Shown: positions 17,925 to 42,912 of the stretch, piece by piece
Numbering within the stretch: position 1 is the stretch's first letter
Layout: every line of letters begins with the position of its first letter
DNA from: Haloprofundus salinisoli
Lineage (GTDB): Archaea; Halobacteriota; Halobacteria; Halobacteriales; Haloferacaceae
Direction: 5' to 3'
Assembly (NCBI RefSeq): GCF_020097815.1
Contig: NZ_CP083663.1
Span: forward strand, 2,790,001 to 2,854,000
DNA: 64,000 bases
Notes under the pieces: generated by a model
Told to the model about the DNA's origin: nothing
The model's input: the letters and a program-made list of their open reading frames with translations, nothing else
Databases searched by the model: none
Position numbers and translations under genes: made by a program

Positions 17925-18320
17925 GTGAGCGAACGGGACACCAGTCGGTCGTCGGTGAAGACGTACGTACCGACGTATCAGAAAGAACAGTGGACCGACC
18001 ACGCCGACGAACTCGGGATGAGCCAGAGCGAGTTCATCCGGACGATGGTTCAAGCGGGTCGACGCGACTTCGATCTCGACGCGTCGGACGAAACTCTGGA
18101 GGCCCCTGTTGACGCCCCGAACCCCAGGGGTAACGTGCTCGAAGACCGAGTCCATGAAGTGCTCCATCGACGGGACGTCATGTCGTGGGACCAACTGGTC
18201 GAAGCGCTCTCGGGAGATTTCGAGAGCCGACTCGAAGACGCGCTCGACTCGTTGCAGTCGGCGAACCGAATTCGGTACAACGGACGCGAAGGGGGATACG
18301 TGGTGACCGATGGCGAGTGA
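17925..18320 (+). CDS. DUF5805 ribbon-helix-helix/winged-helix protein
   Basis: 131 residues from GTG 17925. Residues about 10-45 (SVKTYVPTYQKEQWTDHADELGMSQSEFIRTMVQAGRR) form a ribbon-helix-helix DNA-binding pattern. Residues about 70-131 (EDRVHEVLHRRDVMSWDQLVEALSGDFESRLEDALDSLQSANRIRYNGREGGYVV) look like a winged helix. In haloarchaea this family sits directly upstream of a XerC/D-like recombinase, as here: the stop overlaps the recombinase ATG at 18310. A regulator or accessory DNA-binding partner of the recombinase is likely. Confidence 0.85.
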   Translation: MSERDTSRSSVKTYVPTYQKEQWTDHADELGMSQSEFIRTMVQAGRRDFDLDASDETLEAPVDAPNPRGNVLEDRVHEVLHRRDVMSWDQLVEALSGDFESRLEDALDSLQSANRIRYNGREGGYVVTDGE

Positions 18321-19371
18321 ATCCACCGGGGGGACAGCAGAGACCGACGACCCCGTCGGCTACTTCCTCCAAGATATGGTGTACCACGGCAAGTCAGAGC
18401 GCACGCGGACCGAGTACGAACGAGTGCTGCGTCGGTTCGAATCGTTCCTCGCCGATCCCGACCGGAACCCCGGTGGTCGATCGGTCGCCCCCGCCGACGC
18501 CACCCACCGTGACTGCATGGCGTGGGTCCACTCGCTGCGCGGCACCGTCGCGTCGAGCACGGTCGCTATCTACGCCGCGTACCTCCACCGCTTCTACGGC
18601 TACATGACCCAAGTCGGCGTCTTCGACTCCAACCCGATGACGCTCGTCACCGAGGAAATGGACGAGTCGATCGAGAAAGATCCGACCCGCCGCGACATCG
18701 ACGTACCGACGATGCGGGCGTTCGTCGCCGACGTTCGACATCCTCTCCACCGAGCGCTCGTCGGGACGTTCCTCAAAACCGGCATCCGGGTGGGAGAGCT
18801 CTGCAACCTTGACCTCCGGGACGTGTCACTCGCCGACCCCGAGCTGTCGAACGCCTACGATCTCGGCGGGCGACCTCAACTGGACGCTCGTCCGAACTCG
18901 CTTTTCGTCTCTTCGAATCCGACGGTCGGCGAGCGACACAACGGCGAGATTCGGTCGGCGTCGAACAAGCGGAAGCGCGACACTGTGATCCCGATCGACG
19001 ACGAACTCTCTCGGTTCCTGAAATCGTGGCTGGCGATTCGTCCCGACCCCGTCTCACCCGCCGACCCGCTGTTCGTCGGTACGAGCGAAGGGTGGGGCGA
19101 GCGACTCACGCCGAACGCCGTTCACAACATCGTCACCACTTACGCAAGCGAGGCGGGGTGGTACCGTTCCGGCGGGGACGCGACCGAGAACGTCACGCCA
19201 CACTACTTTCGGCACTTCTTCACGACGCACCTCCGCGAGCGGACCGGCGACCGCGGCATCGTCAAGTATCTCCGCGGCGACGTCGCTACCGACATCATCG
19301 ACACGTACACCCACAACTGGGGCGGGCAAGTTCGGGAGACGTACGAGTCGAACATCTACTCGATACTCTGA
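18310..19371 (+). CDS. XerC/D-like tyrosine recombinase
   Basis: 353 residues. An N-terminal SAM-like core-binding domain (residues about 15-115) precedes the catalytic domain. Catalytic residues seen are Arg160 in KTGIRVGEL, His298 and Arg301 in PHYFRHFF, His335 in DTYTHNW, and the nucleophile Tyr345 in RETYESN. All needed residues are present, so it should be active. The conserved pairing with DUF5805 suggests a host chromosome or replicon resolution role rather than a prophage integrase; no phage genes are nearby. An AT-rich palindrome lies 113 bp downstream. Confidence 0.9.
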   Translation: MASESTGGTAETDDPVGYFLQDMVYHGKSERTRTEYERVLRRFESFLADPDRNPGGRSVAPADATHRDCMAWVHSLRGTVASSTVAIYAAYLHRFYGYMTQVGVFDSNPMTLVTEEMDESIEKDPTRRDIDVPTMRAFVADVRHPLHRALVGTFLKTGIRVGELCNLDLRDVSLADPELSNAYDLGGRPQLDARPNSLFVSSNPTVGERHNGEIRSASNKRKRDTVIPIDDELSRFLKSWLAIRPDPVSPADPLFVGTSEGWGERLTPNAVHNIVTTYASEAGWYRSGGDATENVTPHYFRHFFTTHLRERTGDRGIVKYLRGDVATDIIDTYTHNWGGQVRETYESNIYSIL

Positions 19372-23953: not shown

Positions 23954-24274
23954 TCAGTCGGCGCTGCTGCCGACCGTCGTGTCGTTTCTCGCGTCCGACG
24001 CGCGACTGTGCTGGCGTCGCTCCCACGCCCAGCGTTGGCGGATGGCGCGACGGCCTTTCTCCGTCAGCTCGTAGTAGTTCGTCCGCTGGTCGAGGGTGCC
24101 TTTCTCGACGAGTTCCGCTTCGACGAGGATGTCGAGGTTCGGGTAGAGACGACCGTTGTTGACCTCGTCGCCGAGGTACTCCTCGATGTGGACTTTGATG
24201 TCCTGTCCCGAAGGGTGGTCGTGTCCCGCACAGACGAACAGCAGGTCTCGTTGGAAGCCAGTTAGGTCGTTCAC
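23954..24274 (-). CDS. PadR family transcriptional regulator
   Basis: 106 residues from GTG 24274 (NDLTGFQRDLLFVCAGHDHPSGQDIKVHIEEYLGDEVNNGRLYPNLDILVEAELVEKGTLDQRTNYYELTEKGRRAI). This is the winged helix of PadR regulators in full. I chose the GTG because the family starts at DLTGFQRDLL; the longer frame to 24322 adds hydrophobic residues unlike the family. It probably represses a nearby or distant membrane-protein gene. Confidence 0.9.
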   Translation of the reverse strand: MNDLTGFQRDLLFVCAGHDHPSGQDIKVHIEEYLGDEVNNGRLYPNLDILVEAELVEKGTLDQRTNYYELTEKGRRAIRQRWAWERRQHSRASDARNDTTVGSSAD

Positions 24275-24479
24275 ATCAACATAGAGGACACTCAAGATGT
24301 TAGTTATCGGGCTGCTAAGCAATAGAACGTGAATTTCACCGCGAAGTTAGTATCTCCTTGTCGTCGCCGTCGCCCGACCATCGCGGACCGTTTCGGACAG
24401 TTTCGAACCGTTGCAACCGGACGCAGTCTAGCGGTTCCGTCCGTTTACACGCTCCACCGGAAACGGGGTCAAAATTTCC

Positions 24480-24695
24480 TCAGACGACCCGCGGATTTCC
24501 GGTCATCGCAATCCGGAGCAGTACGGCCGAGAACAGCACGACCCAGCACGCGAAGAAGACGACGGCGATGGTTCCCAGATACTCGACGTCGGTGCCGCCG
24601 ATCTGCAACTCCTTGAGCTGCCACAGATACACCGTCGTCTCGACGCCCATCACGACGAGAAGCACCGCGACGACTCTAACCGCCGTCGTCGACAC
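24480..24695 (-). CDS. 71-residue two-helix membrane protein
   Basis: MSTTAVRVVAVLLVVMGVETTVYLWQLKELQIGGTDVEYLGTIAVVFFACWVVLFSAVLLRIAMTGNPRVV. Two clear transmembrane helices (about 5-25 and 40-64) joined by a short loop. Same strand as the PadR gene and upstream of it. Function unknown; a small stress or transport-associated protein would fit. Confidence 0.7.
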   Translation of the reverse strand: MSTTAVRVVAVLLVVMGVETTVYLWQLKELQIGGTDVEYLGTIAVVFFACWVVLFSAVLLRIAMTGNPRVV

Positions 24696-24832
24696 CGTCC
24701 TCCCTCCGACCGTCGCAGAAGTAGTTTGAATGTCTGAAACTCAATCTCGAAGACATCTCTGTGACGATACTCTCTCCGGGGGCGTAGATATAGATACTGC
24801 TCCTCACGTTGACGATGCACCGACGATGGCCG

Positions 24833-24904
24833 ACGACGCGGCGGGTTTCTCCACGACGCGGCGGGTTCCCCCACGACGCGGCGGATTCCTCTACGACGCG
24901 GCGG
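24833..24904. repeat. 20-bp tandem repeat, 3.6 copies, intergenic
   Basis: Four units start at 24833, 24853, 24873 and 24893 with the shared core ACGACGCGGCGG and a variable 8-nt tail. The last unit is cut after 12 nt. The array lies in the 297-bp gap between the divergent membrane protein and the 59-residue protein. It could be a binding array or a slippage product. Confidence 0.85.
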
Positions 24905-24992
24905 ACGCCGGCATCCCGAGCCGGAGTCGGCGGACGAAGATGGTAGGCGAACGGACCGACGTTTCAAGTATCTCCTTGCTGGTTGGTATCCT

Positions 24993-25172
24993 ATGTACAG
25001 GGCGATTCTCCCAGATGGCGACATGGAGTGCGCGAACTACGAACACGGCGACTACGGCGTCGACATATTCACCGACGACGAGGAGTTCATCGCCTTCATC
25101 CCGTACGCGAACCTCGTCGCGCTCATCAACGAGGAGGTCCAGCTCGGCGACGAGCCGTCCATCGCGGACTAA
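24993..25172 (+). CDS. 59-residue acidic small protein
   Basis: Short reading frame MYRAILPDGDMECANYEHGDYGVDIFTDDEEFIAFIPYANLVALINEEVQLGDEPSIAD. The alternating strand pattern and the conserved-looking FIPYANLVALINEE end make it a believable haloarchaeal microprotein. It is preceded by the tandem repeat and convergent with the UbiA-like gene, 26 bp apart. No function recognised. Confidence 0.7.
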   Translation: MYRAILPDGDMECANYEHGDYGVDIFTDDEEFIAFIPYANLVALINEEVQLGDEPSIAD

Positions 25173-27371: not shown

Positions 27372-28982
27372 TCAGTTGTTGCGGACGACGTTCCCGTTGG
27401 AACCGTTGCGGACGAGTATCTCGCGGCCGCCGTTGTCGCGGACGACGTTGTCCTCGACGCGGTTGCCGTCGGAGTTGTCGAGTTCGATACCTTCGTCGCC
27501 GTTACCCACGACTTCGTTGTCGACGATGGTACCCTCGTCCGTGCGGAGGAGGTAGATGCCGTCGTCGCCGTTGTCGCGGACGACGTTCCCGAAGAGGTCG
27601 TTCCCGCCGGACCCGCGCAGGAAGAACCCGTCGTCGCCGTTGCCGGTGACGACGTTGTCGACGAACTGGTTCCCGTCGCTCTCGCCTACTCCGATACCGT
27701 CGTCGCGGTTGTTCGTGACCGTGTTACGTTCGACGACCGCTCCGCCGGCGAGGTCGGTCAGCCCGATACCGTCGTTGCGGTTCGCGTCGACGACGTTCTC
27801 GACAATGGTCGTGCCGGGGGCGGCGACAACGTTGATGCCGTTTACGCCGTTGCCGACGAGTTCGTTGCCGTCGAGGGTCGTTCCCTCGGCACCGCGGACG
27901 AAGACGCCGTCACCGCCGTTGTTGCGGACAGTGTTCTCCGAGATTTCGGTGTCGAGAGCGCCCTCACCGAGGCTGATACCGTCGTCACCGTTCCGCTCGA
28001 CGAGATTCGAGCGCACGACAGTTCGTTCCGCGGAGCCGAAATCCTCGAATTCAGCCTGAACGCTGATTCCGTCGTTGCCGTTTCCGCTGACGACGTTGTG
28101 CTCGACGACGTTGTCGGCGGTGTGCGACGAGATGAAAATCCCGTTGACGCCGTTGTCGACGACGTGATTGTCGCGGATCGCGTTCTCGGTCGAGTCCCCA
28201 AAGTCCACGTCACCGCTGAGGAGTACGCCGTGTCGGTCGTTGTTCGCGATAACGTTGTTTTCAACGATCAACCCTCCGTAAATCGACAAGATGAGAACGC
28301 CGAATTCGTTGTTCTCAATGACGTTGTCCGAGACCTCGATCTCCGACCCGACGCTCACCGAGAGACCAAATCGGTCGTTCCCGGCGATTCTACTGTTGGT
28401 GACGACCGAACCGGCCGTCTCGAAAAGTTCGACTCCGAAGTTGTTGTCCACAACGTCTGTCGATTCTACGACGAACGTCCCGGACGACCCGGAAATGCCG
28501 ATGAAGTCGTTGTCACGAACGATGCTCTCCCGGACGGTTACGTCGCTACTTAATGCGAAGATTCCGACCAGATTGTTCTCTACGACGACGTTCTCGAGGG
28601 TTACCTCAGTATCGAAGTTCGTCTCGATTCCCGTGCCCCAATCGGAGACGACGACGTCACGGATGGTGATATCGCTGGTGGGTTCGAAGTCTCCTACGAC
28701 GCTGATGCCAGCGTTTCCGTCACGCATATCGCTTCGACCATCGACGGCGTAACCGCTTCCATCGAAGACGACACCACCGGATTCGATGACGATACACGCC
28801 TCCCCGTCGATGGTCGCATCCCTAATGTCCTCCGTCAAAACATACCGTCCCGGTTCCGAAATCACGGTACACTCGTCGAGCGGCGTCGCCGTCTGCCCGG
28901 CGACGACGCCGATGAAGCCGCCGAACGTCGAGAGGACGAGTAGCATCACGATCGCGGACACACTTGTATCACTAATATTCAT
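27372..28982 (-). CDS. Secreted right-handed beta-helix protein (NosD-like repeats)
   Basis: 536 residues. N-terminal hydrophobic signal VSAIVMLLVLSTFGGFIGVVAGQ ends in a likely cleavage site. The rest is a run of parallel beta-helix turns of about 22-24 residues with the recurring pattern V-x-x-N-x-V-x-x-N-G-x-D-G-I, for example DNVIENNEFGVLILS, RNTVTNNRDDGIGVGE and DNVVTGNGDDGFFLRG. There are about 16-18 turns, ending abruptly at NGSNGNVVRNN without a capping domain, so the protein may bind or be modified at its end. Probably exported and possibly a carbohydrate-binding or lyase-like surface protein. Confidence 0.88.
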   Translation of the reverse strand: MNISDTSVSAIVMLLVLSTFGGFIGVVAGQTATPLDECTVISEPGRYVLTEDIRDATIDGEACIVIESGGVVFDGSGYAVDGRSDMRDGNAGISVVGDFEPTSDITIRDVVVSDWGTGIETNFDTEVTLENVVVENNLVGIFALSSDVTVRESIVRDNDFIGISGSSGTFVVESTDVVDNNFGVELFETAGSVVTNSRIAGNDRFGLSVSVGSEIEVSDNVIENNEFGVLILSIYGGLIVENNVIANNDRHGVLLSGDVDFGDSTENAIRDNHVVDNGVNGIFISSHTADNVVEHNVVSGNGNDGISVQAEFEDFGSAERTVVRSNLVERNGDDGISLGEGALDTEISENTVRNNGGDGVFVRGAEGTTLDGNELVGNGVNGINVVAAPGTTIVENVVDANRNDGIGLTDLAGGAVVERNTVTNNRDDGIGVGESDGNQFVDNVVTGNGDDGFFLRGSGGNDLFGNVVRDNGDDGIYLLRTDEGTIVDNEVVGNGDEGIELDNSDGNRVEDNVVRDNGGREILVRNGSNGNVVRNN

Positions 28983-29080
28983 GATATTACTGATGCGAGA
29001 GGAGGAGATAACAGTATCTCAGACGTTCGGGACGGTCGAACCGGCCGGACAGGCGGAAAAGTAGACGTTCCGACTTCGGC

Positions 29081-35034: not shown

Positions 35035-35144
35035 GTAGTCGAGTTTCCCGGCGGCGCGTTTGTCGGTTTCGGAGTGGGCGCGCGGAGCCGATTCTGTCGC
35101 CCTGGCGGGGCGGTTTTACAACGTTGGCCTTCGTCTCACCGCCT

Positions 35145-35888
35145 ATGGCGCGAATCAACGTGCTCGCCGACGACCTCGAGTTCGATGAACCGCTGCTCGT
35201 AGAGGGCCTTCCCGGCGTCGGACTGGTCGGAAAGATTGCCGCCGACCACCTCGTCGAGACGTTCGAGATGAACCACTACGCGAACGTCTACTGCGAGAGC
35301 ATCCCGAAGGTCGCCGTCTATCGCGACGACGACCGGAGCATCCACCCGCCGGTGCGCATCTACGGTGATACCGAGCGCGACCTGCTCGTTCTGCAGAGCG
35401 ACGTGCCCATCTCGCCCGGCGCGGCCACAGAGTTCGCCGACTGTCTGAGCGACTGGTTCGACGAGAAACGGCTCACGCCCGTCTACATCAGCGGTCTCCC
35501 GCGTGAGAAGGACGAGGAACCGCCCGAACTCTACGGCATCGGCACCGGCGACGCCGCGTCGATGCTTGACGAAGCCGGCATCGACTCGCCCGCCGAGATG
35601 GGCCTCGTCTCCGGGCCGACCGGCGCGCTGTTGAGCTACGCCATCGAGAACGACCAGAACGCCGTCGGTCTCGTCGTCGAGTCCGACCCGCAGTTCCCCG
35701 ACCCGGAGGCGGCCCGCGTCGTCGTCACAGAGGGTATCGATGCGCTGTTGGATATCGAGGTGCCGACAGACGACCTGGTCGACCGGGCCGAGGAGATTCG
35801 AGAGGCCAAGCAGCAACTCGCCCAGCGCCTTCAGAACGCCGAGAACGACGAGAGTTCGCAGGCGCAGCCGCTGCGGATGTACCAATAG
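35145..35888 (+). CDS. PAC2-family proteasome assembly chaperone homologue
   Basis: 247 residues from ATG 35145 (MARINVLADDLEFDEPLLVEGLPGVGLVGKIAADHLVETFEMN). The PAC2 fold pattern includes LLVLQSDVPISPGAATEFAD, VYISGLPREKDEEPPELYGIGT, GPTGALLSYA and the C-terminal coiled coil EEIREAKQQLAQRLQNAENDESSQAQ. Archaeal PAC2 homologues are proposed proteasome assembly factors. The stop is followed at once by the hairpin-rich element at 35890, which starts the AT-richer region. Confidence 0.9.
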   Translation: MARINVLADDLEFDEPLLVEGLPGVGLVGKIAADHLVETFEMNHYANVYCESIPKVAVYRDDDRSIHPPVRIYGDTERDLLVLQSDVPISPGAATEFADCLSDWFDEKRLTPVYISGLPREKDEEPPELYGIGTGDAASMLDEAGIDSPAEMGLVSGPTGALLSYAIENDQNAVGLVVESDPQFPDPEAARVVVTEGIDALLDIEVPTDDLVDRAEEIREAKQQLAQRLQNAENDESSQAQPLRMYQ

Positions 35889-35889
35889 C

Positions 35890-36034
35890 ACCTTTTGCGC
35901 TGCGGGCCGCTTCGCGGCCCTCGGCAAAACTGCACCAAAACACAGCGTCACCCTCTCAGGCGCTCCGCGCCTTCGAGGATTCCTCGGGCCGCTCGCTCGT
36001 CCTTGCGGGCTCGCTCGCGGTACAATATCTCACT
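35890..36034. repeat. Hairpin-rich intergenic element, copy A (copy B 46262)
   Basis: It begins CCTTTTGCGCTGCGG, then the hairpin GGGCCGC-TTC-GCGGCCC (35904-35920), then GCAAAACTGCACCAAAA. Small stem-loops GGCG..CGCC and CGAGG..CCTCG follow near 35959-35990, and the element closes with TCGCTCGCGGTACA. The copy after dnaJ has the same skeleton with a differently sequenced but intact hairpin. It lies right after the PAC2 stop. Terminator, processing site or dispersed repeat are all possible. Confidence 0.65.
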
Positions 36035-36050
36035 CTGACCCTGATCACAC

Positions 36051-36145
36051 CGCTCTGCGCAGTTCAGGTCACCGGACTCTGTTAGAAATCCTCAATCAAA
36101 GACAGTTTGGCGAAACCGTGCGAGATACAGAGCGTGTGTCTCGTG
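36051..36145. repeat. Degenerate or variant copy of the 83-bp repeat
   Basis: A left-arm-like CGCTCTGCGCAGTTCAG at 36051 and the strongly conserved right part GTGCGAGATACAGAGCGTG at 36118-36136 are spaced about 12 nt wider than in the seven regular copies. Its right part is the same as in copies at 37401, 38366 and 41226. It is the first occurrence of the repeat family and precedes the first cassette-like gene. Confidence 0.55.
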
Positions 36146-36163
36146 CGAGTTCACCACCGAAAA

Positions 36164-36598
36164 TTAGGTCTGTGACACAGGGGTGGCGACATTTCGTCTC
36201 CGGAGCCAATACTCACCCCCGGCAAGTAGACCATACGCAAGCAGATAGAACGGTGCCCAAAAGAGCACCAAGGCGAATGCAGGTGCGTCACCTCCTTCAC
36301 CCCCTAGAACGGGCAGGTAAATCAAGACGTGCCAGAACAGTAGGACGAGTCCCATGAGAATGGACGGACCTCGAATTCGATAGCGCACCCAGAGCACGAT
36401 TGGAACTCCAATTGTCCCGTACGCGAAGAGCAATCCAATTCCAACTGATGACCAGAATGAGCCGGTGATCTGTATGTCGGGCGTGAGCGCACTGTACCCG
36501 AGGACAATACCAGTATAAACGACGCTAGCGACGCCACTACTCAGGAGGGCTCGCTTCCATTTTCTTCTCGACGAAGACAATTCGTGGAGGGAGGACAT
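36164..36598 (-). CDS. Four-helix membrane protein, orphan
   Basis: 144 residues from ATG 36598 (MSSLHELSSSRRKWKRALLSSGVASVVYTGIVLGYSALT). Four hydrophobic helices near residues 19-36, 48-68, 76-96 and 105-130. The in-frame extension upstream to 37084 crosses the 83-bp repeat and is not coding. First gene of the AT-richer repeat region. No family recognised. Confidence 0.65.
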   Translation of the reverse strand: MSSLHELSSSRRKWKRALLSSGVASVVYTGIVLGYSALTPDIQITGSFWSSVGIGLLFAYGTIGVPIVLWVRYRIRGPSILMGLVLLFWHVLIYLPVLGGEGGDAPAFALVLFWAPFYLLAYGLLAGGEYWLRRRNVATPVSQT

Positions 36599-36688
36599 GA
36601 AGAAACCTGGTGGCCGAGGATTAATAAATTGACACGATGTATTGAGTGAACTGAATAGCTTGCCCGAGGACTTCTCCGTGCCCGACTT

Positions 36689-36771
36689 GCGCTCTCTATT
36701 CAGCAGTCGGTAAGCGAAACCCTCGACTGCTGTCAGTAACGGGCTGCGAGATACAGAGGATGTAGTCAGCA
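36689..36771. repeat. 83-bp structured repeat, copy 1
   Basis: Left arm GCGCTCTCTATTCAGCA, an internal 9-bp perfect stem CAGCAGTCG / CGACTGCTG (36701-36709 with 36724-36732), conserved CTGTCAGTAACGG, then the right arm TGCGAGATACAGAG and TGTAGTCAGCA. A further arm-like sequence lies about 57 nt upstream (36632). It sits between divergent genes at 36598 and 36884. Differs from copy 2 at only a few positions. Confidence 0.85.
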
Positions 36772-36883
36772 CGGGAACTGCGTCATTTTCTCCAAATGAA
36801 TCCTGAATTAGCCGATAGAATGTGCCTGCGGATGAATCAGTTTTGCAGAAGGCACTTACCGTCCTTTCGGTGTAGTAACCAAC

Positions 36884-37324
36884 ATGAATCGCCGTCAGGC
36901 CCTCGCAGTCCTCGGTACGCCTGCCCTCACGTCGGTAACAGGATATGCAACTCTCGAAGCCGAACTTGGGATGCGAGCCGATACACTCGGAGCAGTGACG
37001 CTGGCGAACAGTATTGCAGACCCGTTCAACGTCTCGCTCGAAGTCCTCCGTGACGGCGCTTCCGTGCATCAGGCATCGTATCAACTGGACCCGGGGTCAG
37101 AACAAGAACGGCCACAGTACACCATCAACGAGTGGAAAGAGAACCCGGATGCACGCCAGTGGACTATTCGGGCCAAGATACCCGAGAGCAAGTGGAGAGA
37201 CGCCACAATTGATGCGGCCAGAGGTTCTGAAAACGAATGTTACAGCGTCGCTGTTGTCACTGGTGATTGGCCAGAAACACCGTTGCTCGTCTTACTCGGA
37301 GGGTGTGAATCGGACAATCACTAA
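36884..37324 (+). CDS. Tat-exported protein with C-terminal Cys pair (lipobox lost)
   Basis: 146 residues. MNRRQALAVLGTPALTSVTGYATL has a twin arginine and hydrophobic core, but the lipobox Cys position holds Tyr (VTGY), so lipid anchoring is not expected unless this is a changed site. The mature part has the same layout as the lipoproteins at 12149, 39209 and 53988: FNVSLEVLRDGASVHQAS, then ECYSVAVV and GGCESDNH at the end. Probably secreted. Lies between repeat copies 1 and 2. Confidence 0.7.
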   Translation: MNRRQALAVLGTPALTSVTGYATLEAELGMRADTLGAVTLANSIADPFNVSLEVLRDGASVHQASYQLDPGSEQERPQYTINEWKENPDARQWTIRAKIPESKWRDATIDAARGSENECYSVAVVTGDWPETPLLVLLGGCESDNH

Positions 37325-37400
37325 CAACATCTGTTACACTCACGCTCTGTACTGACCAATCCAATCTGATTGAATCGGGAGATAATTCTGTGTGAGATAC

Positions 37401-37483
37401 GCGCTCTCTATTAAGCAGTCGGTAAGCGAAACCCTCGACTGCTGTCAGCAACGGGCTGCGAGATACAGAGCGTGTATTCAGCA
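37401..37483. repeat. 83-bp structured repeat, copy 2
   Basis: Closely matches copy 1 and has an 8-bp internal stem. Right end AGAGCGTGTATTCAGCA is itself a direct repeat of the left arm. An extra arm (CGCTCTGTACTGACCA) starts exactly 59 nt upstream at 37342, between the preceding stop codon and the element. Lies between convergent genes. Confidence 0.87.
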
Positions 37484-37547
37484 ATCAGATCTCGTTCGTT
37501 TCACGTTCTCGGTGGCGATACAGTCGTTAGGTGGGTGTGTCTACTGG

Positions 37548-38210
37548 TCACTCGGGCCCGTCGTAGTATTCGAACCCCCCCTGTTCTTCGAGTTCATCGA
37601 CCGTCTCTTCAAGTTCGTCAAGTGCTGCTCGGAGTTCGTCAATCTGGGTGCGCACAAAATCGTGACCACGGAGTTCAGTGAGTGCAATAAGTCTATCCCG
37701 GAGAAGGATGTCGTAGGCATCAACCTCTTCTTCTGGGTCACACCCGATGTTATTGGCGAGGACGTGGAACGCCGACCAGAGACCGTATCGACGGCCAGCA
37801 TCATCAGTTACCTCCTCAACCAAGCCGGGGCGCTCGTCGAAGGTTTCGTAATACTCTGCGGCCATATGGCTCCCAAGAATGTAGGCTTCTCCGAGGATTT
37901 CCTGCACGTCCTCCGGTCGGTTGGCGAAGGGCATCCCTTTCCGTGACCACGATTCGGCAAAACCTTCTTCGACGAGTTCGTCCCACCGCTCACGTTCGGC
38001 TTCAACGACCGCTTCGTACTCCCCATAGATTCCGAGAATCACCTCACTCTTCTCATATCGTGTATCCTGCCCAAAGCGAGAAAATCGCACTCCTTCACAG
38101 CCCTCGATTGTTTCGAGGCGATTAAGAGAAGGGACGATATACTCTCGAATCAGTTGTTCATCCGCTTCGTGGCCAGTAGTCACAAACGAAATCCTTTCGA
38201 CAGAAACCAT
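37548..38210 (-). CDS. Soluble orphan protein with C-terminal coiled coil
   Basis: 220 residues from ATG 38210 (MVSVERISFVTTGHEADEQLIREYIVPSLNRLETIEGCEGVRFSRF). Mixed alpha-beta N-terminal domain, a middle helical region (EILGEAYILGSHMAAEYYETFDERPGLVEEVTDD), and a C-terminal heptad stretch (RTQIDELRAALDELEETVDELEEQ). No catalytic motif recognised. It is the only clearly cytoplasmic product in this repeat region. Upstream AT-rich DNA separates it from copy 3. Confidence 0.7.
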   Translation of the reverse strand: MVSVERISFVTTGHEADEQLIREYIVPSLNRLETIEGCEGVRFSRFGQDTRYEKSEVILGIYGEYEAVVEAERERWDELVEEGFAESWSRKGMPFANRPEDVQEILGEAYILGSHMAAEYYETFDERPGLVEEVTDDAGRRYGLWSAFHVLANNIGCDPEEEVDAYDILLRDRLIALTELRGHDFVRTQIDELRAALDELEETVDELEEQGGFEYYDGPE

Positions 38211-38365
38211 ATTCCTACTGTTAAGAGAGACCATCTCAATCTTTCCCTCCCAGAGATATTCCTCCAGAAACCTGGAGTCTTAACTGTTTGCAAATTTGTA
38301 AACTATACTCCTATCTTTACCACTCCTTCGACCGTTTTTATCAGCAAACCCCAGATGACCGATAC

Positions 38366-38448
38366 GCGCGTTGTATCTCGCATCTCCCCCAATGATCTAC
38401 CGAGATGGTGTCAAAAAACCGTGCGAGATACAGAGGGTGTATTCAGCA
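38366..38448. repeat. 83-bp structured repeat, copy 3 (compensated arms)
   Basis: Left arm deviates from the consensus (TGTATCTCGCA at 38372-38382) but is perfectly complementary over 11 bp to its right arm TGCGAGATACA (38422-38432). An inner 6-bp stem CATCTC / GAGATG (38381-38386 with 38402-38407) keeps the fold with different bases from copies 1 and 2. This is the clearest sign that pairing, not just sequence, is kept. Confidence 0.85.
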
Positions 38449-38506
38449 AGCCGCCGTCCTTTGTTTTACACTGAATGAGTTGAACAGACCGATAGGTAGA
38501 GCATGC

Positions 38507-39070
38507 CTATTTACAAGCGACCGTTTCCCACCCGGTCGAAGGAATTGAGCCCGACGAATCTCCGGGTGCGTGAACGGCGAAGTCATCCGTGACGTAATAC
38601 CACCCGTAGAACTCCTCGCTCCCTGCAACTGTCGTGCTGCCGCCTTCCTTCGTGAAGTCTAAGCTCACCCACACTCGGACGACAAACCCTGCTTTCGTCC
38701 TCTGCATGACCTTGGTGTCCCATCCATCGAAGCCGCTGAAGGTGACCTCCCGCTTGTTTTCCACGGTTGCCGAAGAGTACGCCTTCTCAAATTCAAGAGA
38801 ATAGTTCACCACACTTGATTTTGAAACCGAGGAAGGCAGAGATGGATAGGTTGAGTCAGGTAGTTCACTTATCTCGCAGTTACTGGTTGGTTTTGGGACG
38901 TTCGGAAGGGGATCGGGTGTAGGAGAGGCTGTCGGAGTGACTCCATCTGCTCCTTCGCTGGCCGGGGACTCCGTTGCAGTGGGGGAAGAACTCGTGGTCG
39001 TGGAACAGCCTGCGGAGATACTAAGTGCCAGAACAGTAGTTGTACCGAGGCAGAATTGTCGTCTATCCAT
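38507..39070 (-). CDS. Tat lipoprotein, orphan
   Basis: 187 residues from ATG 39070: MDRRQFCLGTTTVLALSISAGC gives a twin arginine and lipobox Cys22. A Ser/Thr/Pro tether (about 23-60) leads to a beta-rich domain (VVNYSLEFEKAYSSATVENKREVTFSGFDGWDTKVMQRTKAGFVVRVWVSLDFTKEGG) ending FYGWYYVTDDFAVHAPGD...ACK. Not clearly related to the Cys-pair lipoprotein family in this window. Surface-anchored. Confidence 0.72.
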   Translation of the reverse strand: MDRRQFCLGTTTVLALSISAGCSTTTSSSPTATESPASEGADGVTPTASPTPDPLPNVPKPTSNCEISELPDSTYPSLPSSVSKSSVVNYSLEFEKAYSSATVENKREVTFSGFDGWDTKVMQRTKAGFVVRVWVSLDFTKEGGSTTVAGSEEFYGWYYVTDDFAVHAPGDSSGSIPSTGWETVACK

Positions 39071-39123
39071 GATTTTGAGAAACTGTCGAATCGGTAAATA
39101 TTTTGTCTGCACTAATCAATTCA

Positions 39124-39140
39124 CGCTCTGGATTGAGCAA
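39124..39140. repeat. Lone left-arm copy of the repeat family
   Basis: ACGCTCTGGATTGAGCA, 17 nt, matches the repeat arm GCGCTCTGTATTCAGCA at most positions. No right arm is visible at the expected distance. It lies between two divergent lipoprotein genes and so may be a decayed element. Confidence 0.5.
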
Positions 39141-39208
39141 TTCGTGGTGCGAATTGGTCAGATTAGTAACTACACAAAGACTATATCCAACTGAGAAGAT
39201 GCTGGAAT

Positions 39209-39676
39209 ATGGTTTACTCTCCAACTCGCCGAAAAATTCTCCAACTTGGTGGGGCCGCTCTTGGGGTTGGCCTCGCTGGGTGTTCTTCGCCCCAAGAAGA
39301 ATCAATAACTGAGAGTCGTCTGGTCGAACTGTCGGTATCGAACCATACCGAGAGCCAACACACCGTCCATGCAGTGCTTCAGGATGGTGATGAGGTCGTC
39401 TACTGGTCGTCGATTCAGGTCACATCCGGTGATAGAGAGAAGAACGATGCAGGTGGCGGGGAATTTTCCAGCTATCCGACGGAGGCAGGGTTATACACAC
39501 TATACGCGAAGGGAGACAATCAACCAGACGACGCATGGACTCAAGCGAAAATCTACGAGTGGGGATACCCTTGTTGGAGCCTCAATATTAAACTCGGATT
39601 ACCGTTCTCCGACAGTCCTGAAAAAATCTCGATATGGAGGCACAACAAGTGCAACGCAGAGACCACCGATACATAG
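39209..39676 (+). CDS. Tat lipoprotein with C-terminal Cys pair
   Basis: 155 residues. MVYSPTRRKILQLGGAALGVGLAGC gives a twin arginine and lipobox Cys25. Mature part LVELSVSNHTESQHTVHAVLQDGDEVVYWSS and end YPCWSLNIKLGLP...HNKCNAETTDT follow the family seen at 12149, 36884 and 53988: an N-terminal strand with N-x-T/D, H-x-V strand, then two Cys about 30 apart. Expected on the outer membrane face. The stop is followed immediately by an arm of repeat copy 4 (39677). Confidence 0.75.
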   Translation: MVYSPTRRKILQLGGAALGVGLAGCSSPQEESITESRLVELSVSNHTESQHTVHAVLQDGDEVVYWSSIQVTSGDREKNDAGGGEFSSYPTEAGLYTLYAKGDNQPDDAWTQAKIYEWGYPCWSLNIKLGLPFSDSPEKISIWRHNKCNAETTDT

Positions 39677-39735
39677 TCAGTCTGTATCTACCAATCTGAT
39701 TCCTCGCCAGACCACTACTGACCAGTGGCCGATTC

Positions 39736-39818
39736 GCGCTGTGTATGCAGCACAGCCTCGACGAACTCCACGACAGCTGTCAGTAACGGATTGCAAGATA
39801 CAGAAGGTGAGTTCATCA
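39736..39818. repeat. 83-bp structured repeat, copy 4
   Basis: GCGCTGTGTATGCAGCA left arm, conserved GCTGTCAGTAACGG, and right arm TGCAAGATACAGAA. The right terminal part GTGAGTTCATCA is diverged. An arm-like TCTGTATCTACCA starts 59 nt upstream at 39677, exactly after the preceding stop codon. Lies between convergent genes. Confidence 0.82.
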
Positions 39819-39867
39819 GGCGATTCCTCGTGTTGGCCACCGGAACGATTTGCTGAGATTAGAGTAG

Positions 39868-40263
39868 TCACCGAGAAACAAGTCGGTTCAAAAGCCATGC
39901 ATAGCCACCTCTCACACTCACCCCATACGCGACTGCCATCGCGACGAGCCAGAGAAGTCCAATAGTGAGTGGTGAACTCTCGCCAGTGGGAGAGTAAATG
40001 CCGTTTGGTGTAACGACATTTCCGAAGATGAACAACACAGTAGTGAGAAATCCGCAGCGCCAGACCACACCGGATTTGAGTTCAGGGAACCTTCGGAGAA
40101 GGACGTATGCTGCCATCAACGCACCGGCGGCCCCAATCACTAACGGAATTCCCTGAGATACTTCTGTCCCTCTGAGTAGCGCGTTGGTGACTCCCATCAA
40201 GCCAATACCGACAGACAGGTGGAAGGCAAACCAAATCGAGAGTAACCGGCGGCCAGAAGCCAT
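39868..40263 (-). CDS. Four-helix membrane protein, orphan
   Basis: 131 residues from ATG 40263 (MASGRRLLSIWFAFHLSVGIGLMGVTNALLRGTEVSQGIPLVIGAAGALMAAYVLLRRFPELKSG). Four hydrophobic segments near 8-27, 39-56, 70-86 and 98-120. Arg-rich turns suggest cytoplasmic loops. No family recognised. Flanked by copies 4 and 5 of the repeat. Confidence 0.65.
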   Translation of the reverse strand: MASGRRLLSIWFAFHLSVGIGLMGVTNALLRGTEVSQGIPLVIGAAGALMAAYVLLRRFPELKSGVVWRCGFLTTVLFIFGNVVTPNGIYSPTGESSPLTIGLLWLVAMAVAYGVSVRGGYAWLLNRLVSR

Positions 40264-40343
40264 GTTCACAAATCATATTCTGGCTGAATAAGTACTGAGG
40301 CTGTCGGTCAAAATGATCCCCTGACGGAACCAATTCAAGATTC

Positions 40344-40426
40344 GCGCTCTGTATTCAGCACTATCGCTGGAACCTCTCTTTCCGGTGTCAGAGATCGCGT
40401 GCTGACTACAGAGGTTGCAGCCATCA
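40344..40426. repeat. 83-bp structured repeat, copy 5 (compensated arms)
   Basis: Left arm carries the consensus GCGCTCTGTATTCAGCA. The right arm has changed from TGCGAGATACAGAG to TGCTGACTACAGAG, which restores pairing to positions 4-17 (13 of 14). This independent change complements copy 3, where the left arm changed instead. An arm-like sequence lies 59 nt upstream at about 40285. Lies between divergent genes. Confidence 0.83.
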
Positions 40427-40519
40427 CAGAAGCCTCATTTATTTCGACTCACCAACGCTGAACTAACCGTTCAGTAGACGTCCGAAAGAATCAATTGAGT
40501 CACTGATAATCTCGCGAGT

Positions 40520-40684
40520 ATGTCCCCTGAAACGTGGTTCATTCTCCTCCTCTTCCTGATTGTGACTGTCCCGGTATTCATCGGCGTTGTTGCACTCATT
40601 AGCCGTGCGACTGGCGGGGCCGATGACGAAGAGATAGAGGAACTGAAACGACGAGTGGAAGAACTTGAAACCCAGCAGAACTGA
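40520..40684 (+). CDS. 54-residue single-helix membrane protein with coiled-coil tail
   Basis: Short reading frame MSPETWFILLLFLIVTVPVFIGVVALISRATGG, one transmembrane helix, followed by the charged tail ADDEEIEELKRRVEELETQQN, a short coiled coil. This architecture (one helix plus short acidic coiled coil) is common among haloarchaeal microproteins. Lies between repeat copies 5 and 6. Confidence 0.7.
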   Translation: MSPETWFILLLFLIVTVPVFIGVVALISRATGGADDEEIEELKRRVEELETQQN

Positions 40685-40766
40685 TTATTGCCTACCGTTA
40701 GCCAGCTCACCTGTACTGAGCGATTTGATTAGCGCCCACATCGAGCGCTGAACCGATAACCGATAT

Positions 40767-40849
40767 GCGCACTCTATTCAGCAGCCGGTGAATGAACTCC
40801 TCAACCACTGTCAGTAACGGAGTGCAAGATACAGAGGGTGTATCTCTCA
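40767..40849. repeat. 83-bp structured repeat, copy 6
   Basis: GCGCACTCTATTCAGCA left arm, CTGTCAGTAACGGAG middle and TGCAAGATACAGAGGGTGTA right arm. Right terminus diverged to TCTCTCA. The arm-like TGTACTGAGC is upstream at about 40706 (61-nt spacing). Lies between a plus-strand stop and a minus-strand stop. Confidence 0.83.
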
Positions 40850-40931
40850 CTGAAACCCCATTTATTTCGCCCCATCGGCTCTGAACTAACCGCTAAGTGG
40901 ACATGTGTATTGAGTTCAAGAGAAGAACAGG

Positions 40932-41129
40932 TTACGCGAATTTTGACCGCTGACCTATCCAAAATCCGAATAGCATTACGAGGAGTAGAGTAGCCATAGG
41001 AACCCAGAATGCTACACTAGTGAACAGTCTGATGGAGAGTATCTCAGGGTAGAAGATGGCTAGCCAAAGAGGAATCCCCATTAACAAGCCTGTTGCAGCA
41101 GCAAGCAGAAATTTGGGATAGGAATCCAT
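40932..41129 (-). CDS. 65-residue two-helix membrane protein
   Basis: From ATG 41129: MDSYPKFLLAAATGLLMGIPLWLAIFYPEILSIRLFTSVAFWVPMATLLLVMLFGFWIGQRSKFA. Two hydrophobic helices (about 7-27 and 35-59). No family recognised. The extension upstream to 41177 crosses an arm of the repeat and is excluded. Confidence 0.62.
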   Translation of the reverse strand: MDSYPKFLLAAATGLLMGIPLWLAIFYPEILSIRLFTSVAFWVPMATLLLVMLFGFWIGQRSKFA

Positions 41130-41225
41130 CTCTATACTCGAATACAGTCTACCCACTGATAAGTTCGCCCTCTGCATTCAGCAATAGACAGCCCTGTGGT
41201 TCGGTGTGAGAAATCTGCTGTAGTC

Positions 41226-41308
41226 GCGCGCTGTATTCAGCACGACCGTAGAAACCTACCCAATTCTTGCCAGAAACAGCATGCGAGATACAGAGCGTGT
41301 ATTTATTG
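41226..41308. repeat. 83-bp structured repeat, copy 7
   Basis: GCGCGCTGTATTCAGCA left arm and TGCGAGATACAGAGCGTGTAT right arm. The final bases TTATTG overlap the stop codon region of the DUF2270 gene (41303-41305), so this copy touches a coding sequence. An arm (GCCCTCTGCATTCAGCA) sits exactly 59 nt upstream at 41167. Confidence 0.85.
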
Positions 41309-42025
41309 GTTCGTTTCTTTCCACTCGCCGGGGTCGCCTTCACGGAATTCACCTTTGGCGTGGCGTTCTCGGGGCCAAAACACAACGCCTACCAGTATCA
41401 CGTAGAACGCACCGACGAGAGTAACCATGACAATTCCGGGGATGTAAGCTATTTTAGCGGCTTCAAGCCAGGTTTGACGTGGCGGCGTAAACGCTGTAAT
41501 CCGAAAGACCCATGCAGCGAGTAAGACCCCGAGCAGGGCGAGGTACACGCGTCGAAGCCGGTTGGCGAGCGCTTCTTGGAAGGAGACTTTCAGGGTCGGG
41601 ACGCGGAAGTCCGCACTCAACTCCGCTCGCCAGTTTTGATGTTCAACTTCTTGCGTTGGGTCAAGGGCGTTCGCGAACAAGTTCTCTTGGAGCATTCGAA
41701 CCCGCGAGCGAAAGACATCGTAGTCCCGATACCGTCGCGCTTCGATGCCGAGAAAGGCGGTAACGACGACTACCCCAATGAGCAAAATGTAGTGGGGGTT
41801 GTCGGGACTCGAAAATGCCCACGTCAAGATGGCCGCCATCACCGTCACCGCCCACGTCGTCGTCTGGTCGAGGCGCTGTCGCCACGTCGTGACACGATCC
41901 ATCTCTCCGCGGTAGAAATGGGCCATCACCGACCCAAGTCCGGTACTCTGGTCAACCATCTCTCGCCCTATCTCCCGCTGTTCGGGCGCAGTTGGGTCGA
42001 ACTCATCGCTGTCTGCCTCGGTCAT
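41303..42025 (-). CDS. DUF2270 membrane protein
   Basis: 240 residues from ATG 42025 (MTEADSDEFDPTAPEQREIGREMVDQSTGLGSVMAHFYRGEMDRVTTWRQRLDQTTTWAVTVMAAILTWAFSS). The YRGEMDRVTTWRxRLDxTTxWAVT pattern and following helices match DUF2270. Hydrophobic helices lie near 55-75, 80-97, 160-178 and 195-220; EARRYRDYDVFRSRVRMLQENLFANAL is a conserved amphipathic region. Function unknown. It is more GC-rich than its neighbours, so it may be older host sequence at the edge of the repeat region. Confidence 0.82.
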   Translation of the reverse strand: MTEADSDEFDPTAPEQREIGREMVDQSTGLGSVMAHFYRGEMDRVTTWRQRLDQTTTWAVTVMAAILTWAFSSPDNPHYILLIGVVVVTAFLGIEARRYRDYDVFRSRVRMLQENLFANALDPTQEVEHQNWRAELSADFRVPTLKVSFQEALANRLRRVYLALLGVLLAAWVFRITAFTPPRQTWLEAAKIAYIPGIVMVTLVGAFYVILVGVVFWPRERHAKGEFREGDPGEWKETNQ

Positions 42026-42102
42026 ATCGTAGGTACGTTTCCCCTTCACATAAACAGGGAGAGAGCGTTTCGAGAAACTATGATTTGGTGTACATCGAAC
42101 AA

Positions 42103-42119
42103 GCGCGTTGTATTCAGCA
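42103..42119. repeat. Lone left-arm copy, right border of the repeat region
   Basis: GCGCGTTGTATTCAGCA, 17 nt, nearly identical to the left arm of the 83-bp repeats, without a right arm. It lies between the DUF2270 start and grpE and is the last member of the family seen, so it marks the right limit of the array. Confidence 0.7.
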
Positions 42120-42234
42120 CGCGTTTACTGTCAATCTCTATCCATTCTCGCAGAGTCGTCCACCGCTACCGTCCCGCCACCGCCCGCCGTTTGTTTCTGC
42201 AATCCTTAAGCCGAACCAGCGGTACAGTCCGACT

Positions 42235-42912
42235 ATGACCGACGACGCTACTGACGAGTCAGCGGCGGAGCGACAGACCGAGGAGACGCCCGAAGAACCC
42301 GTCGAAGACGCGTCGACGGCGGGAGCCGAGGCGACCGAAAGCGGCGAGCGCGGCGGCGAATCGGAAGAAGCGCCGACGAGCGAAGGTCTCGCCGGGCGCG
42401 CCGCGGAGTACGACGACGACCTCGCCGCCGACGTGGCCGCGTTACAGACGCGCGCGGACGAACTCGAAGCCGAACTCGCCGAGAAGGACGACCGCGTCGA
42501 GGAACTGGAGGCGGGTCTGCGCCGCACGCAGGCGGACTTCCAGAACTACAAGAAGCGTGCGAAGAAGAAGCAGGACGACATCCGTGACCGCGCGACCGAG
42601 GAGTTGGTGTCGCGCCTCGTCGGCGTCCGCGACAACCTCCTGCGGGCACTCGACCAGGAGGAGGGTGCCGACATCCGCCCCGGCGTCGAGTCGACGCTCA
42701 AGGAGTTCGACCGCGTCCTCGACGACGAGAACGTCGAACCCATCGAACCCGACCCCGGCGAGGCCGTCGACCCCCAGCGCCACGAGGTGATGATGCGCGT
42801 CGACAGCGACCACCCCGAGGGCACCGTCGCCGACGTCTACCAACCGGGCTACGAGATGGCCGAGAAGGTCATCCGCGCGGCGCAGGTGACGGTGAGCAAG
42901 GGCGACGAGTAG
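42235..42912 (+). CDS. grpE: Nucleotide exchange factor GrpE
   Basis: 225 residues from ATG 42235. An acidic unstructured N-terminus (about 1-65) leads to the long dimerisation helix (DDLAADVAALQTRADELEAELAEKDDRVEELEAGLRRTQADFQNYKKRAKKKQDDIRDRATEELVSRLVGVRDNLLRAL) and the C-terminal beta domain (PQRHEVMMRVDSDHPEGTVADVYQPGYEMAEKVIRAAQVTVS). GrpE releases ADP from DnaK. It is first in the grpE-dnaK-dnaJ cluster. The ORF extends upstream but the family begins at MTDDATDES. Confidence 0.95.
   Translation: MTDDATDESAAERQTEETPEEPVEDASTAGAEATESGERGGESEEAPTSEGLAGRAAEYDDDLAADVAALQTRADELEAELAEKDDRVEELEAGLRRTQADFQNYKKRAKKKQDDIRDRATEELVSRLVGVRDNLLRALDQEEGADIRPGVESTLKEFDRVLDDENVEPIEPDPGEAVDPQRHEVMMRVDSDHPEGTVADVYQPGYEMAEKVIRAAQVTVSKGDE

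Follow-up and report, generated by a model that had tools for sequence, protein, structure and literature searches.

A small-gene island between PAC2 and grpE

We analysed a 64,000-nucleotide window (C1:2790001-2854000) of the 3.42-Mb genome of Haloprofundus salinisoli, labelled G000, alongside four congeneric genomes (G001-G004). Within the window, PAC2 (35124-35888) and grpE (which starts at 42235) enclose an island of nine small genes, g1 to g9, that is divided into cassettes by short repeats. The array proper spans ~36119-42119, and the first ~190 bp past PAC2 are ordinary conserved flank. The nine genes between the two conserved ones are as the initial annotation had listed them from the open reading frames (ORFs) of the window. 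So are their protein classes, based on a reading of the translations and a hydropathy count rather than a dedicated predictor: five membrane proteins (g1, g6, g7, g8 and g9), three whose N-termini are Tat-like or of lipoprotein type (g2, g4 and g5) and one soluble coiled-coil protein (g3). Only g9, a DUF2270 protein, matches Pfam above cut-off; the other eight do not, although g7 has a single sub-threshold match.

The composition and gene order stated initially, an island less GC-rich than its flanks in bases and codons and switching orientation at nearly every gene, were confirmed as well. The GC content is 0.519 in the island versus 0.65 over the remaining window, and third-position GC (GC3) is 0.47-0.66 in the nine genes versus 0.82-0.91 in five core genes. 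From g1 to g9 the strands run - + - - + - + - -, a switch at six of eight junctions. Two more GC dips lie outside the island, at window 24001-25000 (0.593) and 28001-29000 (0.562). No tRNA that might have served as a target occurs within the window, and no RNA families were found.

Seven full repeat elements separate the cassettes and a half element closes the array at each end, all on the + strand. The initial annotation had described 83-bp repeats; the repeats are there, and they measure 93 bp when the 27-bp site at each end is included in full. Each full element consists of a left site (S_L, 27 bp), a 39-bp interior and a right site (S_R, 27 bp). Both sites are dyads of the form TGNNNNATAC-7 nt-GTATNNNNCA (10-7-10) and differ in the consensus of the spacer, which is GCGCNNT in S_L and AGAGGNT in S_R. 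As g4 and g5 share one cassette, the nine genes make up eight cassettes. The array reads as follows (window coordinates):

36119..36145, +: S_R site, left end of the array; spacer AGAGCGT; homology with the G001/G004 backbone on the left stops here
36164..36598, -: cassette 1, g1; membrane protein without a Pfam family; matched at 74% by DNA of G042 (different genus)
36679..36771, +: repeat element 1; S_L 36679-36705, interior, S_R 36745-36771
36884..37324, +: cassette 2, g2; exported, Tat-like N-terminus, no Pfam family; 88% DNA match in G112 (different family)
37391..37483, +: repeat element 2; S_L 37391-37417, S_R 37457-37483
37548..38234, -: cassette 3, g3; soluble coiled-coil protein, no Pfam family; 83% DNA match in G294 (different genus)
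38356..38448, +: repeat element 3; S_L 38356-38382, S_R 38422-38448
38507..39070, -: cassette 4, g4; lipoprotein-like; matched at 93% by G004:C3 and G001:C1:785846
39209..39676, +: cassette 4, g5; lipoprotein-like; missing in both congeneric copies of cassette 4, which retain its S_L flank
39726..39818, +: repeat element 4; S_L 39726-39752, S_R 39792-39818
39868..40263, -: cassette 5, g6; membrane protein, no Pfam family
40334..40426, +: repeat element 5
40520..40684, +: cassette 6, g7; 54 aa, a single hydrophobic helix plus a helical tail that is charged
40757..40849, +: repeat element 6
40932..41129, -: cassette 7, g8; small membrane protein
41216..41308, +: repeat element 7
41303..42025, -: cassette 8, g9; DUF2270 membrane protein (PF10028, E 1.1e-74), the sole island gene with wide relatives
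42093..42119, +: S_L site, right end of the array; spacer GCGCGTT at 42103-42109; right backbone homology with G004 begins at 42103

The order NOL1-PAC2-grpE-dnaK is syntenic in all four congeners, and the interval between PAC2 and grpE differs among them. It is empty in G002 (~245 bp) and G003 (216 bp) and holds one AT-rich gene in G001 and a different one in G004, against eight cassettes in G000. The inserts of G000, G001 and G004 have no DNA in common at E 1e-3. This excludes vertical inheritance of the nine genes and agrees with the initial view that the island was acquired. The borders of the inserts coincide with the sites. In the coordinates of a repeat model built from the repeat alignment (m1-m105, with S_L at m7-33, S_R at m73-99 and the spacers at m17-23 and m83-89), the backbone homology on the left extends as far as S_R (m90-95), and that on the right, in the comparison of G000 with G004, sets in at m17, where the S_L spacer opens. 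The right site has been lost in G001.

Breakpoints, array order and orientation

The repeats are widespread in these genomes. The sequence model finds 80 copies in G000 and 39, 98, 30 and 84 in G001 to G004, and the exact dyad pattern has 26 matches throughout G000, whereas a reversed-pattern control has none, so that chance does not account for the sites. Copies within G000 are up to 94% alike. For the breakpoint analysis we used the 87 full repeats without gaps from the five genomes. Their inner half-sites are uniform, with 15 and 23 variants, whereas the outer half-sites are diverse (54 and 65), as if these were part of the cargo.

Where does one conserved unit end and the next begin? In 224 pairs of repeats with interiors at least 85% alike, identity is above background solely over m24-m86 and at background outside, falling to that level inside the left spacer (m17-23) and inside the right spacer (m83-89). 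The reverse comparison took pairs that have the gene side in common, at S_R (17 pairs) or at S_L (5 pairs). Here, in the averaged profile, likeness ends at the spacers, and most of the repeat interiors differ. Together with the uniform inner and diverse outer half-sites, these breakpoints mean that, judged from the alignments, repeat body and cargo are separate units joined in both spacers. Their recurrence across loci and genera points to site-specific recombination at both sites. Stepwise acquisition through the repeats had been suggested initially; because the breakpoints fall in the spacers of the sites, acquisition through the repeats is strongly supported, whereas its stepwise course is not, as exchange en bloc fits equally well.

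The arrays are also ordered. Neighbouring repeats (at least 30 bits, within 2 kb) lie on the same strand in 78 cases and on different strands in none at the Haloprofundus loci, and the ratio is 34:1 at loci of other genera. The sequence of a right-half element, full elements and a left-half element is kept in 115 of 128 neighbour pairs at the Haloprofundus loci. The gene units between repeats (n = 110) have a median length of 634 bp and a median GC content of 0.509. With regard to the repeat, their cargo points either way: the longest ORF lies on the repeat strand in 58 of 109 units and on the opposite strand in 51, although in some units, such as those of g7 and g9 in the window, this ORF is not the actual gene. 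The orientation of a cassette relative to the repeat is the same in all 18 cassette matches with labelled sites in both loci (a count that leaves out one repeat-only match and four to the backbone). Because of these 18 matches we dropped an inversion of cargo between S_R and S_L, initially favoured, as the source of the mixed orientation.

A leader of ~55 bp (GTTTATTTC ... GAACTAACCGYTAAGTAGG) lies just downstream of 32 of 127 S_R sites and of none of 129 S_L sites, regardless of gene strand. Examples in the window are 36772-36836, 37484-37540, 38449-38503, 40415-40485 and 40838-40903. Promoter, terminator or accessory binding sites are candidate roles.

A proposed exchange mechanism, its candidate enzyme and the alternatives

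We consider it probable that the genes of the island are mobile cassettes, arrayed between two incompatible types of site at which they are exchanged, likely by a tyrosine recombinase of 234 aa. In the mechanism that we propose, two kinds of unit would alternate: R units, which run from S_L to S_R and usually comprise only ~62 bp between the crossovers, and G units, which run from S_R to S_L and have a cargo of one or two genes pointing in either direction. The recombinase would pair S_R with S_R and S_L with S_L; a pairing of S_R with S_L would be impossible because their 7-bp spacers differ. One reaction, between arrays that are neighbours or separate, would lead to the gain or loss of a circle consisting of a gene and a repeat. 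Two reactions would swap all content between an S_R and an S_L, amounting to a natural recombinase-mediated cassette exchange. Pairing of like sites only would have the consequence that arrays begin with S_R and end with S_L, that repeats lie on a single strand, that cargo orientation is kept and that the content of a locus can be wholly replaced with its borders unchanged, in keeping with what is observed.

The likely enzyme would be encoded within some of the R units. PF00589 has nine matches in G000, seven of them above the family cut-off. One is the 234-aa recombinase (C1:1480861-1481562), ~1.35 Mb from the island, whose gene sits inside a unit bounded by S_L (degenerate) and S_R, as does its homologue in G004. 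The protein has matches in 66 of 243 Halobacteriales genomes at 1e-15. Of the 30 recombinase loci that we fetched, 18 are of close homologues (identity of 70% or more), and 15 of these bear a site of at least 14 bits within 150 bp of the gene, versus none of 12 distant ones (Fisher p 1e-5). The site on the 5' side follows the orientation of the gene in nine close homologues, and in one, at locus L135, the arrangement is reversed on each side. This association makes the 234-aa clade the best candidate for the enzyme. As an interior-only profile yielded two of the 30 loci, we used a shuffled-alignment test to compare the sequence between stop codon and S_R with the interiors of short repeats. 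It resembles them in five of eight units (0-2 of 200 shuffles reach the score), and some short repeats thus look like internal-deletion derivatives of the recombinase unit.

PF00589 is the sole Pfam domain of the 234-aa protein and is matched by all 20 aligned clade members. R65, K124, R184 and Y216 are invariant in the 20 sequences and H181 nearly so; we take these R-K-HxxR-Y residues to be catalytic. C92, C94 and C97 are likewise invariant, and this C-x-C-G-x-C cluster is a possible metal site. The predicted structure (pLDDT 80.6, poor before residue 24) matches those of XerA, IntI and the Tn1549 integrase at 16-19% identity. Many of the recombinase copies at loci L124-L153 are broken by stops or truncations. 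In G004, a C-terminal remnant (residues 189-234, 89%; C1:2164885-2165022) adjoins a right half of a repeat (2165022-2165085), which suggests that an array may end in a decayed recombinase unit.

Other recombinases lie near arrays. The ends of two unrelated tyrosine recombinase genes (L022 4994-6115 and L056 7524-8834), whose relatives in congeners are away from sites, lie 0.1-0.3 kb ahead of an array; for a third gene (L102, G004:C1:27390), a site is ~1.2 kb away. The array-adjacent recombinases at C1:377565 and C1:548020 were taken to be coincidental neighbours, because their congeneric relatives are not beside sites.

Several observations weigh against the exchange of cassettes as proposed here. 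Neither a circle nor a strain-level rearrangement was seen in the genomes compared. The array order is violated in 13 of the 128 neighbour pairs (left-half followed by full, 6; full by right-half, 6; left-half by left-half, 1), perhaps through missed or decayed sites. A DUF2270 unit in another genus (G005, L163 1372-2434) is inverted relative to its sites when compared with g9, the sole inversion seen and the remaining exception to the kept orientation. G002 and G003 keep no site between PAC2 and grpE, and the mechanism does not account for the first insertion. With regard to the enzyme, 3 of the 18 close homologues have no clear site, the sequence between stop codon and S_R shows no repeat similarity in three of the eight units, and G001, G002 and G003 have no match to the 234-aa recombinase at 1e-15 despite their 39, 98 and 30 repeats.

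This last observation bears on a serious rival, namely that the host XerA-like recombinase works the sites, as XerCD does on the dif modules of Acinetobacter. The island itself holds no recombinase, so that mobilisation would act in trans, as the initial annotation had stated. It had also pointed to a tyrosine recombinase at 18310 in the window; the gene (18310-19368) is present, with orthologues in all four congeners, each upstream of the NOL1-PAC2-grpE block. It encodes the sole PF00589 recombinase found in all five Haloprofundus genomes, including the three that lack the 234-aa enzyme, archaeal XerA is its best-fitting model (110.9 bits, cut-off 220), and the array sites are dif-like dyads. 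However, there are no sites within ~1 kb or more on each side of the gene in any of the five genomes, and no lone conserved copy of a dif-like motif is evident in G000, G001 or G003. The 234-aa clade is physically linked to sites and the XerA-like gene is not, which makes this conserved gene the weaker candidate of the two and the XerA explanation unlikely overall.

We regard it as improbable that the repeats are miniature inverted-repeat transposable elements (MITEs) or other small mobile repeats that jumped into a foreign island whose genes are not cassettes. They do have inverted ends and an apparent autonomous relative with a recombinase gene, and the MITE trait of terminal inverted repeats in common with an autonomous element is seen in the sites within 150 bp of that gene, on at least one side, in 15 of the 18 close homologues. 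The small mobile repeats of Haloquadratum, as far as described in the available text of PMC3119063, are likewise 80-110 bp long, with inverted ends and no target duplication. Yet a target-site duplication of 4-8 nt was found in none of the 87 copies, the cargo has fixed ends of its own, as shown by identical cargo ends next to unrelated repeat interiors, and neighbouring repeats almost never lie on different strands.

Slightly less credit still is due to homologous recombination between dispersed repeats, with the genes shuffled by it and the sites as relics. The repeats are numerous, similar and in a single orientation, and so would be suitable substrates, but homologous recombination would scatter the breakpoints across the repeat, whereas they sit in the two spacers of a dyad site that is conserved and borne by a recombinase clade.

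A true integron with attC sites is hardly credible: although the units hold one or two orphan genes between two-site elements of ~93 bp, in arrays with no adjacent integrase, and integrons are known from other archaea (PMC9668308, as far as its available text goes), the cargo orientation is random and the integron-integrase model TIGR02249 scores the 234-aa enzyme at 20.1 bits against a cut-off of 265 (the other four recombinases tested score no higher). Nor do the repeats resemble attC sites. These carry the boxes GTTRRRY and RYYYAAC, which occur in 3 and 4 of the 87 repeats, respectively, and never both in one copy. RNAalifold on 46 repeat copies gave no consensus pairs, and the complementarity of the arms was 0.575 both within elements and for shuffled partners, with no covariation.

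Distribution and comparison with known systems

By blastn, the repeat consensus matches 48 of 99 genomes (G000 included) in 25 of 54 genera. Among 84,980 species genomes, the exact degenerate pattern matches 42 stretches, all haloarchaeal by title and with 18 genus names, and none from other organisms. The 16 plasmid records that match the repeat are all haloarchaeal. Carriage by phages was rejected, as there was no match in the phage collection and none in viral contigs. On the basis of these matches, the cassette system is Halobacteria-wide. Arrays occur on the chromosome and on large replicons, and the island is one of several in G000.

Cassettes are shared between loci and genomes. In addition to the matches listed above, g2 is found at 81% in G026. 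The 93% copies of g4 in G004 and G001 lie at other loci than the island. Thirty of the 78 cassette proteins of at least 100 aa outside the window were sampled, of which 7 have a Pfam match above cut-off (DUF2269, PhzF-like, L-PSP, PAS/histidine kinase, a Cys/Met PLP enzyme, DUF7344 and a methyltransferase) and 23 have no family. Defence cargo was considered and rejected, the sole PADLOC match being a weak one of DUF2270 (E 0.001). At L045 3785-7618, 3.8 kb with 65-72% internal and cross-locus similarity lie between a left-half and a right-half site; judged by L025 10151-12562, these are probably PAS/histidine-kinase genes.

We lean somewhat towards a broader interpretation, in which Halobacteria would have a cassette-capture system of their own that is unrelated to integrons. 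It would combine a 234-aa recombinase with no recognisable core-binding domain, two incompatible types of dyad site, clean exchange between S_R and S_L, growth by circles of a gene plus a repeat and short repeats derived from the recombinase unit by deletion, and it would carry much of the low-GC orphan content of haloarchaea. No description of such a cassette system was found in the openly licensed literature. If the interpretation is true, a large part of the low-GC orphan genes found in islands and on large replicons of haloarchaea is carried as cassettes. This would explain how haloarchaea take up and shuffle many such genes, and would give Archaea a cassette system of their own. The natural double-site exchange might find use as a genetic tool for halophiles, and the simple site pattern allows a class-wide listing of cassettes, which makes the cargo testable.

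Recombinase-mediated cassette exchange is a laboratory method in which two incompatible sites flank a cassette that is exchanged cleanly. That method is engineered, whereas the Haloprofundus version would be natural and involve multiple cassettes. Like integrons, the arrays have units of one or two genes, for the most part unknown, with two-site elements and a recombinase that is often missing. Unlike integrons, they have no attC core, fold or IntI, the cargo is randomly oriented, and the recombinase gene lies inside a unit rather than beside attI. Integrons have been reported in 75 archaeal metagenome-assembled genomes from nine phyla, and neither Halobacteria nor Halobacteriota is named in the available main text of that study (PMC9668308).

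The small mobile repeats of Haloquadratum share with the Haloprofundus repeats their shortness, inverted ends, lack of target duplication and unexplained mobilisation. Judged by description rather than sequence, those termed HqIRS40-43/55 may be relatives of the short repeats. According to the same portions of PMC3119063, however, the SMR-A type inserts into IS605/PATE palindromes and its copies are commonly >95% alike, whereas the Haloprofundus repeats delimit cargo. Low-GC islands with integrases and hypothetical genes are described for Halorubrum ezzemoulense in PMC11078007, in whose available text the word 'repeat' does not occur.

The pdif modules of Acinetobacter, as presented in the available sections of PMC13141974, are alike in having double-stranded dyad sites between gene modules, mixed cargo, two alternating module types, alternating site polarity and, as proposed here, a need for matching spacers. 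The two alternating types with inversely placed sites that mark dif modules are seen here as the alternation of S_R and S_L. For inversion of modules between their sites, another dif-module trait, the counts here are 18 labelled matches without it and one inverted unit (L163). According to those sections, the two half-sites of a pdif site differ, one being for XerC and one for XerD, and the spacer is 6 bp, whereas the half-sites in Haloprofundus are alike, the spacer is 7 bp and polarity resides in it. Unlike in pdif modules, one type of Haloprofundus module is shrunk to ~62 bp, a dedicated recombinase rides in it, and the arrays are long. The system matches neither integrons nor XerCD dif modules and, by analogy, looks like an unrecognised haloarchaeal counterpart of both bacterial systems.

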